Assembly: GCA_026002975.1 (NCBI GenBank)
Contig: BPGJ01000011.1
Location: 23,813 to 87,812, forward strand
Source: Acidimicrobiia bacterium
GTDB lineage: Bacteria > Actinomycetota > Acidimicrobiia > Spongiisociales > ZC4RG35
DNA: 64,000 bases
Reading direction: 5' to 3'
The translations under genes were made by a program, and so were the position numbers. Positions 40,368 through 44,214 of the stretch are shown here, piece by piece; the stretch's first letter is position 1; each line of letters begins with the position of its first letter. The notes under the pieces are model-generated. The model was given only the letters and a program-made list of their open reading frames with translations, had not been told where the DNA came from and did no database searches.

Positions 40368-40394
40368 GGTTTGCTCGACCCACGGAACGGGCAA
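40368..40394 (+). promoter_or_regulatory. Candidate SigB/SigF-type promoter of the sigma fusion gene
   Basis: GGTTTG-N15-GGGCAA immediately before the start codon. Confidence 0.45.
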
Positions 40395-40395
40395 G

Positions 40396-41499
40396 ATGGA
40401 ACACGTGACCACGAGAACCTTTCCTTCCGAGCCGGCAGCCGCCCCTCAGGTCCGGGCCTTCGTACGCTCCCTCGTGGAGTTGGGTCCTCTCCGGCAAGCC
40501 GAAGTCGATCTGATGGTTACCGAGCTGGTGGGTAACGTGCTACGCCACTCGCCCGACGTCCCTAGTTTCACGGTCGAGGTGAGCACCGAACATCCGCTGG
40601 GCATCGAGGTGGAGGTCTCACATCCGTTCGACCGTCCGTTCGACCCCCCTCGGGCGGGCCTCGGTTTCACCCTGCTGGAAAAGCTCTCCCGAGGTTGGGG
40701 TCACACGGTGGAGGATGGGACCTTGCGGGTGTGGTTCGTCGTCGGCCGCCCGGGTGCCGTCCCCCGGCTCGATCAGCTCGACGAGTTGGAGCTGTACCGG
40801 CGACTGGACGAGGACCCGCCGACCTTCACCGAGGAGCTACTACGGAGGCACCGTGACTTGGCCGACACCATCGCCCGCCGGTACCGGGGGAAGGGGATCG
40901 ACGACTCGGACCTCGAGCAGATCGCCTTGATGGCGCTGCTCCGGGCCATCCAACGGTTCGACCCGTCGAAAGGAGACCTGCGGCGGTTCGCCGCTTCGAC
41001 CATCTCGGGGGAGATGAAGAAGGCCCTACGCGACGAGGGATGGGCTCTCCGAGTCCCCCGGTCACTCAAGGAACGGGCCTTGGAGGTGGGGCAGGTGGCC
41101 GAATCACTGTCCCACGACCTCAACCGTCGAGCCCGGATCGAGGAGATCGCCGACGCGATGGGAATGTCATCGGTCGAGGTGGCCGAGGCCCTGCAGGCTC
41201 GCCGCTCTTACCGGTCCGAAACGCTGGACGAGGCACCCGACGACGGAAGACCGCTGAAGGAGACCCTGAGCAGCGATCTCCCGGGCCCGGACGATGCCGA
41301 CGAACGAATCCTCTTGGAAGAGGCGATAGCCGGTCTGCCCGAGAAACTACGGAAGGTGCTCGACCTCCGCTTCAACCACGACATGACCCAGTCCGAGATC
41401 GCCGACGTGATCGGGGTCTCCCAGATGCAGGTCTCCCGGATGCTCCGGGATGCCTTGGATCGGCTGCGAGAGCTACTCACCGCCACGGACAGTGTTTAG
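40396..41499 (+). CDS. SigB/SigF-family sigma factor with N-terminal RsbW-like HATPase domain
   Basis: N-terminal MVTELVGNVLRHS (N box) and GLGFTLLEKLSRGWG (G2-like), then sigma regions 2-4: DLEQIALMALLRAIQRFDPSKGDLRRFAASTISGEMKKALRDEGWALRVPRSLKE ... LPEKLRKVLDLRFNHDMTQSEIADVIGVSQMQVSRML. Confidence 0.9.
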   Translation: MEHVTTRTFPSEPAAAPQVRAFVRSLVELGPLRQAEVDLMVTELVGNVLRHSPDVPSFTVEVSTEHPLGIEVEVSHPFDRPFDPPRAGLGFTLLEKLSRGWGHTVEDGTLRVWFVVGRPGAVPRLDQLDELELYRRLDEDPPTFTEELLRRHRDLADTIARRYRGKGIDDSDLEQIALMALLRAIQRFDPSKGDLRRFAASTISGEMKKALRDEGWALRVPRSLKERALEVGQVAESLSHDLNRRARIEEIADAMGMSSVEVAEALQARRSYRSETLDEAPDDGRPLKETLSSDLPGPDDADERILLEEAIAGLPEKLRKVLDLRFNHDMTQSEIADVIGVSQMQVSRMLRDALDRLRELLTATDSV

Positions 41500-41528
41500 G
41501 CTGGTCCGCCAACGGGTACTGCGGAAAT

Positions 41529-41879
41529 GTGAGAACTGACACCGCCGTCGAGTTGCCAGCCACCCTGGAGGCGCCCCGCCGCCTCCGCGCGCGTCTGGAG
41601 CGGCTCCGCGACGACTTGGGTGAACGGTTCGACGACGTGGTGCTGATCGTGTCCGAGTTGGTCGCCAACAGCGTGGTCCACACCGATAGTCGCCGGGTAT
41701 CCGTCCGCCTGAAGCTGAGAGGCGACACGGTTCGGGTCGAGGTGAGCGACGACGGTCATGGGTTCACGCCGGACGACGTCACTCGACGGTGGGGCATCGC
41801 GGTGGTCGAACGGCTGGCTCGACGCTGGGGAGTGGACAGGGGGAAACGCTTCACGGTTTGGGTCGAGATACCGCGTTAG
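41529..41879 (+). CDS. RsbW-like anti-sigma factor kinase (HATPase_c_2)
   Basis: VLIVSELVANSVVHTDSRRVSVRLKLRGDTVRVEVSDDGHGF...WGIAVVERLARRWGVDRGKRFTVWVEI. Confidence 0.85.
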   Translation: MRTDTAVELPATLEAPRRLRARLERLRDDLGERFDDVVLIVSELVANSVVHTDSRRVSVRLKLRGDTVRVEVSDDGHGFTPDDVTRRWGIAVVERLARRWGVDRGKRFTVWVEIPR

Positions 41880-41887
41880 AGCGACGG

Positions 41888-42232
41888 TCAGTCCGGCAGC
41901 TCCTCCACGGCGGCCACCACCTGCACCTTCTGATCGACCCCGGTCAGCTCGATCAGGCGGGTAACCGGGCCCGGCCCCAACATGAGCACCAGCCGCTTGC
42001 CCGACTCCTCGAACCTCTGATGGCGTTCGACCAGGGCCCGTAAGCCGGTGGAGTCCATGAAGGTGACGGCAGAGAGGTCCACCAACAGCCTGTCGTCGGA
42101 TTCGGCCTTGTCGAGGGCTGCCACCAGCACGTCGACGGTGGATATGTCCACCTCGCCCTCGACATGTAGGGTCGGCCAGCCCGGCTTGGCCTCCCCCACT
42201 TGCACCGTCAGAGCTTGGTGGTCTGCCTCCAC
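41888..42232 (-). CDS. STAS-domain anti-sigma factor antagonist (RsbV-like)
   Basis: LLVDLSAVTFMDSTGLRALVERHQRF with the conserved phospho-Ser context. Confidence 0.88.
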   Translation of the reverse strand: MEADHQALTVQVGEAKPGWPTLHVEGEVDISTVDVLVAALDKAESDDRLLVDLSAVTFMDSTGLRALVERHQRFEESGKRLVLMLGPGPVTRLIELTGVDQKVQVVAAVEELPD

Positions 42233-42251
42233 GGCCCCGTACTGTAGATGG

Positions 42252-43841
42252 TCATCCGCAGCGGCGTACCACCACCACGGTCTGATCGTCGTTCACTTCC
42301 GGGTCGGCGAACCCGACAACCAGGTCGGCGACCTCTTCCGCGTCGGTGGATCTGTCGACGAGCATGTCGGCGAGGCGTTCGGGTTGAGCTGCTCCACCTT
42401 CGTCGATCTGCACGTCGGCGACGCCGTCGCTGAACGCCACCAGCGTCGCACCCGGTGGGAGCCCTACGAGTCGCTCACCCCCGGAATCGGCCCCCATGAA
42501 AAGCAGAGGTCCGGTGGCTTCCACCATCTGCACCGCTCCGTCGGCTACCAGCACCAGGGGAGGATGTCCGGCCGAGGCGATGTGGGCCTCACCCCGGTCC
42601 TTCACGATCTCGATCACCACGGCCGACGACAACGCCGACCCGGACATCAGACGTTCCACCGTTGCGAGACATCCGGCGGGAGACGATCCAGCCGCCAAAG
42701 CGGCAGCCAGACCGTCACGGATACGGACGGCGGCGACCGCCGCTTCGGCTCCGTGGCCTGCCACGTCGACCAGCACGACCCCGAGCCGATCCGGCCCGAG
42801 AGATACGACTGCTGAAGCATCTCCCGTGACCACCCCGGTCGCCGGCCTGTAGCGGGTGGCGACCTGCCAGTTCGGGTCGGGGTCCACCTCCAACAGGTGG
42901 AGCACGTCGGCGACGTTCTCGACCAGCGGAGCCGCCTGCCGCAAGGCGGCCCGCGCCCTCTCGGCCGTGGCGGCGGCTTCGGCGGCCTCGCGGGTGGCCC
43001 GGTCGATCCAGCTCACCAGGGTGGCGAGCATGACGACCAGGAAGAGGCCCAGCCCCACCGCGACGAACGCGAGCAGGCTGACCCGCTCGTTGGCGGGCCG
43101 GGCCTGAGCGAGGAGGATCAGCAGAGCGGGAACCAGCAGCACCACCGGTCCGAAACGTCGAAGCACCGCTCCTCCCCAACCCGGGCTCGACGCGGCCGCT
43201 ACCAGGCCCACACCCGGTTGGGCGAGGAGTATCCCGACCGAGGCGCCCAGGGTGACCAACGCCTCCTGGAGCGAGATCGGAGGACCGAGGACCAGCCTTC
43301 CGATCGCGGGATCACCGGCCGCGTACGCCACCAACGTCACCGCCATGAGGGAGAACACCACCAGACAGCAGATCTGGCCGGCCACAACCCTCCGGGAGTC
43401 CCTTTGGCCGACCAGAAGCGCCCCCGCCGAGAGGCCGACCAGGCCGGCTTCGGCGCTGAAAGCCGGCATCTCGCCCAGCGGAACCGGCCACAACCATCCC
43501 GTGACCCCCAGCAGGGAGGACATCAGGTATAGGGCGTAGACACCCGACAGGACGCACAGCGTCTTACCTGCGAGACGGAGAACCGGCCTCCCACCCTTGT
43601 CGGTCGTCAACACCGCCCCGACGGTGAGGCACGCCAGGCCGACGAGGATGAACACCGACCCGCGCCCCACCGACCCGGGGCCCTCTGATCGAAGACCGCC
43701 CCATCCCATGACGGCCGACCCCGCGGTGACTACCGCCCCGAGAGCCGTCAGACGCCGAACCCACCGGCCGACGGCGCGGATCCGGTTCTCCACCCTGGGA
43801 TCCAATCGGGAGAGGGGACCCGCCTCCTGGGCTTGTTCCAT
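42252..43841 (-). CDS. Membrane PP2C/SpoIIE-family phosphatase (RsbU-like)
   Basis: Multi-TM N-terminus; phosphatase motifs VVTGDASAVVSLGPDRLGVVLVDVAGHGAEAA, FSDGVADVQID, NDDQTVVVVRR. Confidence 0.88.
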   Translation of the reverse strand: MEQAQEAGPLSRLDPRVENRIRAVGRWVRRLTALGAVVTAGSAVMGWGGLRSEGPGSVGRGSVFILVGLACLTVGAVLTTDKGGRPVLRLAGKTLCVLSGVYALYLMSSLLGVTGWLWPVPLGEMPAFSAEAGLVGLSAGALLVGQRDSRRVVAGQICCLVVFSLMAVTLVAYAAGDPAIGRLVLGPPISLQEALVTLGASVGILLAQPGVGLVAAASSPGWGGAVLRRFGPVVLLVPALLILLAQARPANERVSLLAFVAVGLGLFLVVMLATLVSWIDRATREAAEAAATAERARAALRQAAPLVENVADVLHLLEVDPDPNWQVATRYRPATGVVTGDASAVVSLGPDRLGVVLVDVAGHGAEAAVAAVRIRDGLAAALAAGSSPAGCLATVERLMSGSALSSAVVIEIVKDRGEAHIASAGHPPLVLVADGAVQMVEATGPLLFMGADSGGERLVGLPPGATLVAFSDGVADVQIDEGGAAQPERLADMLVDRSTDAEEVADLVVGFADPEVNDDQTVVVVRRCG

Positions 43842-43851
43842 GGAGAGGGAA

Positions 43852-43881
43852 AGCTACCCCGCCGGAGCAGGCGGGGTAGCT
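43852..43881 (-). terminator. Stem-loop between glsB-like gene and rsbU-like gene
   Basis: AGCTACCCCGCC-ggagca-GGCGGGGTAGCT, perfect 12-bp stem. Confidence 0.6.
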
Positions 43882-43902
43882 CTCAGCCGAGCACGTCGTC
43901 GA

Positions 43903-44157
43903 TCAGACCGTCCGTCCGCGCATCGACCGGTAGACCAACAGGGCGATGATCGCCCCTATCACCGACCCGATGAGGCCGGCTGCTGTGATGTCGAGCTGCC
44001 CTTCGAACAGCAGGTTCCCGAGGAACCCGCCGACCAGCGACCCGACCAGTCCCAACACCAAGGTGCCGAGGACACCCATCGGGTCCCTTCCCGGTACCAG
44101 CAGCCTCGCCAACGCTCCAGCGATGAGACCGATGATGAGCCACACGATGATCGCCAT
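43903..44157 (-). CDS. GlsB/YeaQ/YmgE-family stress-associated membrane protein
   Basis: MAIIVWLIIGLIAGALARLLVPGRDPMGVLGTLVLGLVGSLVGGFLG. Confidence 0.9.
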   Translation of the reverse strand: MAIIVWLIIGLIAGALARLLVPGRDPMGVLGTLVLGLVGSLVGGFLGNLLFEGQLDITAAGLIGSVIGAIIALLVYRSMRGRTV

Positions 44158-44187
44158 TGCCTTCCTTTCGCTCGGATCGGCCTCTCC

Positions 44188-44214
44188 ATACCCGCTCGGC
44201 AGATTCCCCAAACC
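44188..44214 (-). promoter_or_regulatory. SigB/SigF-type promoter of the glsB-like gene
   Basis: GGTTTG-N15-GGGTAT on the minus strand, about 31 nt upstream of the ATG. Confidence 0.65.

Follow-up and report, generated by a model that had tools for sequence, protein, structure and literature searches.

A probable SigF-type partner-switching locus of an Acidimicrobiia bacterium in which an RsbW-like domain and a sigma factor are encoded as one protein

A stretch of 64,000 nucleotides from the genome of an Acidimicrobiia bacterium (GenBank assembly GCA_026002975.1, contig BPGJ01000011.1), referred to here as the window, carries at 40.37-44.21 kb a locus of five genes (Table 1), in which a fused sigma factor and a free RsbW are encoded on the plus strand and GlsB, RsbU and RsbV on the minus strand. 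We consider that this locus probably represents a complete SigF-type general-stress partner switch, in which a kinase-negative anti-sigma domain of the UsfX/RsbW1 type is covalently joined to the sigma factor and the free RsbW acts as the kinase of RsbV. As in other RsbW-type modules, a sigma factor, an RsbW-like anti-sigma/kinase, a STAS protein with a phosphorylatable serine and a PP2C/SpoIIE phosphatase are encoded together. The fusion consists of an RsbW/UsfX-like domain (aa ~4-116), a short linker and a sigma part (aa ~130-361) with clear matches to sigma regions 2, 3 and 4 (E=1e-12 to 5e-17). The best NCBIfam model, TIGR02980 (SigB/F/G), is matched over its whole length with E=7e-59, at 199 bits against a cut-off of 234, and other sigma subfamilies score lower; judged by these profiles, the sigma is of the SigB/SigF type and is not a formal member of TIGR02980.

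The N-terminal domain of the fusion looks kinase-negative and of the UsfX/RsbW1 type because its G1 box is missing, its predicted RsbV-contact residues are kept and its predicted fold is nearest to that of UsfX. Its match to HATPase_c_2 (aa 9-87) is weak, with E=3.5e-4 and a score under the Pfam cut-off. None of the 14 fused domains compared has a G1 box, the element that holds the adenine in GHKL proteins, and alignments place the same gap in the sigF-adjacent anti-sigma of Nocardia, Mycobacterium and others. Arg20 and Glu43, which are invariant across all fused domains, align by way of a Halobacillus RsbW to Arg23 and Glu49 of Bacillus subtilis RsbW, two residues through which that protein contacts RsbV, in the case of Glu49 at the serine that is phosphorylated (PMC7340262). 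An AlphaFold model of the domain (pLDDT 90) finds its top TM-scores, 0.74-0.77, with the anti-SigF chains of 8ih8 (UsfX-RsfB) and 8jzt (SigF complex). The domain thus has what characterizes UsfX/RsbW1, a GHKL fold without a G1 box that is encoded directly ahead of the sigma, except that it is not a protein separate from the sigma: both parts lie in a single open reading frame (ORF), an arrangement kept in 13 further loci.

An alternative to be weighed at this point is that the wiring is the classical one in trans, as in Bacillus, with the free RsbW serving as both RsbV kinase and anti-sigma and the fused domain surviving as a decaying remnant or an aid to dimerisation. The absence of G1 from the fused domains, the loss of the N-box Asn from 8 of the 14 and the presence of a free RsbW within 2 kb of nine of the 13 other fused loci would all fit such a scheme. 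We nevertheless regard it as unlikely, given that Arg20 and Glu43 are invariant in every fused domain, that the fold is predicted with confidence, that UsfX/RsbW1 is a working anti-SigF likewise devoid of G1, and that the fusion has been kept across many genera.

The free RsbW of the window has retained its N box (SELVANSVVH) and G1 box (SDDGHGF) and is probably an RsbV kinase rather than the main binder of the sigma. In M. smegmatis, RsbW1, which is encoded next to sigF, binds SigF and is not a kinase, and RsbW2 is the kinase of RsfB (PMC7693655). Because of this precedent, the intact G1 box of the free RsbW and the phosphosite serine of RsbV, which is kept in 22 of 22 cases, a division of the anti-sigma and kinase roles between the fused domain and the free RsbW appears well supported by homology. 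It could also be imagined that the two pair through the RsbW dimer face, and that a mixed dimer holds the sigma and phosphorylates RsbV, tethering the kinase to the sigma. RsbW-type proteins do dimerise (PMC7340262), an RsbW1-RsbW3 interaction has been reported in M. smegmatis (PMC7693655) and the promoters suggest that free rsbW is co-regulated with the fusion; we find this arrangement somewhat less probable than the trans wiring, since co-purification of M. smegmatis RsbW1 with the kinase RsbW2 was not seen (PMC7693655) and a free RsbW is missing from the surroundings of some loci.

It appears that the sigma can be tied to stress-type genes because of its promoter footprint. In M. smegmatis the SigF promoter is GGWWT-N16-17-GGGTAY (PMC7693655). 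The window holds six occurrences of GTTT-N15-17-GGGNA, a number slightly above chance (6 of 100 shuffles reach six), and it is their placement that counts: three, each with N16, are the predicted promoters of the fusion, free rsbW and glsB, and the limits of the locus, 40368 and 44214, coincide with two of them. The -10 element ahead of the fusion ends 1 nt before the ATG at 40396, so the GTG at 40405 may be the real, near-leaderless start. Among related loci the motif precedes glsB in 8 of 9 (background 3%) and free rsbW in 4 of 16, and it was found before none of 16 rsbU and none of 19 rsbV genes; no standard sigma-70 promoter was found for rsbU-rsbV in the window. Genome-wide, the motif was counted against a reversed-pattern control in eight genomes with a fused sigma and in ten of the same family without one, and the ratio of motif to control was 108:26 in the former and 47:55 in the latter (Fisher p = 4e-8; per-genome rank test p = 9e-4). 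Both the placement and the genome-wide footprint are, as sequence-based evidence, compatible with recognition of GTTT-N15-17-GGGTA.

There are six strict sites in the genome of the window, of which three are intragenic and three lie ahead of glsB, a csbD homologue (PF05532, 7.5e-15) and an operon with a DUF7218/Rho_N gene; glsB is accordingly placed among the predicted targets of the sigma. In the relatives, genes with the motif ahead of them encode a mechanosensitive channel (mscS) and PRC-barrel, DUF892, YetF, AI-2E-family, YflT-like and baeRF proteins, and the predicted targets of GTTT-N16-GGGNA promoters as a group fit a general stress response. In some Actinomycetota, SigF-type sigmas serve development. 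That the locus controls some other function, such as cell development or surface properties, with the stress-type neighbours incidental, would agree with the small number of motif targets beyond the locus in the window genome (csbD and one small-gene operon) and is highly improbable, since the targets in fused-sigma relatives belong mostly to stress-type families and the conserved neighbour target is glsB. In one relative, G016, sites of the form GTTT-N15-16-GGGTAW are dense before small stress-type genes (PRC-barrel, DUF892, YtxH-like, DUF72) at C8:14000-31000 (L201) and C17:6500-10500 (L202), clusters that look like a stress island.

Under the proposed partner switch with a tethered anti-sigma, free RsbW would phosphorylate RsbV in unstressed cells, and the fused W domain would silence the sigma of its own chain or of the partner chain in a dimer. 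On stress, the membrane protein RsbU, sensing something at the membrane, would dephosphorylate RsbV, which would dock on the fused W domain and free the sigma domains, still tethered, for RNA polymerase. The genes that the sigma would then transcribe from GTTT-N16-GGGNA promoters are its own, as positive feedback, that of the free RsbW kinase, as a brake, the adjacent glsB, and stress genes far from the locus, csbD among them. We infer the binding, kinase and phosphatase steps, the inhibition in cis and the signal. Tentatively, and with less confidence than we place in the locus as a partner switch, we suggest that the switch may be intramolecular, such that RsbV opens a permanently tethered anti-sigma/sigma protein with a constant one-to-one ratio of inhibitor to sigma, the threshold then being set by the free kinase alone.

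Several observations weigh against this scheme. The G2 box of the free RsbW is reduced and atypical (RWGIAVV), and the free RsbW of several relatives is without the G1 Asp, so that a kinase role is not uniform. The N box of the fusion in the window is still intact, so that weak ATP binding by the fused domain could persist. The model of the full-length fusion (pTM 0.42) gives no reliable domain arrangement and no docking of the W domain on the sigma. The motif enrichment might stem in part from other SigB-type sigmas in the fused-sigma genomes, and the window genome itself offers only few clear targets.

The original prediction, made from the sequence of the window, was of a self-contained stress locus of five genes, and all five were found at the positions and in the orientations described. 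The two transcripts are convergent, as had been proposed, their stop codons lying 8 bp apart; the sigma, the W kinase, the STAS protein RsbV with its MDSTGL motif and the RsbU phosphatase are all present, the domain matches and the retained PP2C acidic (metal-binding) motifs agreeing with what had been recognized. The multi-TM N-terminus assigned to the phosphatase is seen as ~6 hydrophobic segments in the N-terminal half of RsbU. GlsB passes the Pfam cut-off of Transgly_assoc (36.9 bits vs 25.3). The recovered genome is ~85% complete, and in this recovered part the only STAS protein, RsbU-type phosphatase and SigB-type sigma are those of the locus, so that the description as self-contained holds. 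Another PF07228 match was set aside as a general PP2C phosphatase. That the genome has a further partner-switch set was rejected, since no other STAS protein was found and the strongest other HATPase match is a GAF histidine kinase (the remaining HATPase matches were not examined singly). The hairpin between glsB and rsbU is a possible terminator or attenuator, and might part a sigma-driven glsB transcript from rsbU-rsbV; it has no strong T run and was not called by terminator prediction.

Table 1. Predicted genes, promoters and hairpin of the locus, in window coordinates
Feature	Position	Strand	Basis and remarks
SigF-type promoter of fusion gene, GTTT-N16-GGGCAA	40369-40394	+	motif
Fusion gene (N-terminal RsbW-like domain + SigB/SigF-type sigma, 367 aa)	40396-41499	+	profile matches
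SigF-type promoter of free rsbW, GTTT-N16-GGGTA	41494-41518	+	motif; -35 overlaps fusion stop codon
Free RsbW, 116 aa	41529-41879	+	HATPase_c 7e-11, HATPase_c_2 9e-10
RsbV, STAS anti-anti-sigma	41888-42232	-	STAS 1e-16; phosphosite Ser in MDSTGL
RsbU, 529 aa, membrane N-terminal half + SpoIIE/PP2C phosphatase	42252-43841	-	SpoIIE 2e-27
Hairpin, perfect 15-bp stem, between glsB and rsbU	43852-43885	-	z = -3.4
GlsB/YeaQ/YmgE-type small membrane protein	43903-44157	-	Transgly_assoc 4e-9
SigF-type promoter of glsB, GTTT-N16-GGGTAT	44188-44213	-	motif

The comparison set consisted of 13 fused loci in 12 other genomes, several on contigs that end early. Full-length fused homologues with 37-47% identity occur in these loci, in genomes of the same family and, outside it, in a single genome from a different family of that order, and a sequencing or frame error as the source of the fusion was therefore rejected. 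Of the 13 loci, 11 have RsbV within 0.7 kb, nine a free RsbW within 2 kb, seven RsbU within 3 kb and four GlsB within 5 kb. The grouping is not a chance one, and the co-occurrence in related genomes that had been put forward as a check of the original prediction was thus borne out; the strictly convergent layout is common only to the nearest relatives, G017 and G016. With the conserved neighbourhood, the single set of components and the promoter footprint, the idea of a partner-switching stress locus stands, with the reservation that the wiring is probably not quite that of Bacillus, since the fused W domain looks kinase-negative.

Many unfused relatives (e.g., L054, L058, L060 and L061) have a degenerate RsbW-like ORF immediately upstream of the sigma and, close by, a less degraded RsbW, so that the most likely origin of the fusion is the joining of two adjacent genes of this kind. 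Two changes on a tree of sigma domains explain the 15 fused rows, and the fused forms would need one or two origins. A wide spread of the fusion in the class or phylum was rejected, as none was seen among the matches listed or in 99 further sigma ORFs (from the class, named Actinomycetota and Bacillota), a count that strongly diverged domains could escape. The N-terminus of RsbU varies between loci, and only L040 and L049 match the RsbU of the window over nearly the whole length; its sensor part seems to have been swapped often. A second fused sigma in G017 (L042; C26, 7896-9101) has only GlsB within 7.9 kb, with no RsbV, free RsbW or RsbU there, and may share the partners of the first G017 copy, L040. 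Other fusions of switch parts were also encountered. At L051:4193-4948 and L052:7263-8018, free RsbW and RsbV domains lie in a single open frame upstream of the fused sigma, apparently a kinase-antagonist fusion by which nearly all switch parts in that genus are fused. At L067:7188-9395, one open frame beside an unfused sigma encodes both a free RsbW domain and the phosphatase domain of an RsbU. At L111:5224-6420 (Planosporangium flavigriseum) and L164:7473-8645 (Dactylosporangium fulvum), a STAS (RsbV-like) domain, judged by eye, precedes a SigB/SigF-type sigma in the same frame, which would be a different covalent partner-switch fusion.

Partner switches, kinase-negative anti-SigF proteins and a separate RsbW kinase are already known, and what appears to be new is the UsfX/RsbW-sigma fusion, of which we found no published example in the open literature, most subscription papers lying outside that search. 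The known RsbW-type switches have separate anti-sigma and sigma proteins; in a conserved fusion their ratio is constant and release would take place within one molecule, which bears on whether dissociation is needed at all and, if true, would be a design for a general stress response that has not been described before. The pairing of a kinase-negative anti-sigma with a separate kinase extends the logic of mycobacterial SigF to a lineage whose stress regulators have not been studied, and from the promoter footprint comes a directly checkable list of predicted target genes.

Of the known systems, that of Mycobacterium SigF (PMC7693655) shares with the locus a SigB/SigF-type sigma, an anti-sigma without G1 directly upstream, a separate RsbW with kinase motifs, a STAS antagonist and promoters of the GTTT-N16-17-GGGTA type. 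There, however, usfX/rsbW1 and sigF encode two proteins and the kinase and antagonist genes lie elsewhere, whereas the present locus joins anti-sigma and sigma in one protein and holds the complete set, including a membrane RsbU. The SigB-RsbW-RsbV-RsbU system of Bacillus has the same partner-switch logic and all four components, but one separate RsbW is both kinase and anti-sigma, in place of a fused W and a free RsbW, and its RsbU is switched by RsbT/stressosome, where that of the window has a membrane domain. In Rv1364c of M. tuberculosis (3ke6), too, partner-switch modules are joined, an RsbU and an RsbW domain in a single polypeptide that does not include the sigma. The RsbW domain of this protein resembles the free RsbW weakly in sequence and the fused domain in fold. 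The ECF41 factors are ECF-type sigmas with an unrelated C-terminal domain and are not known to take part in partner switching. They resemble the fusion in having a regulatory domain fused to a sigma (PMC3426412).

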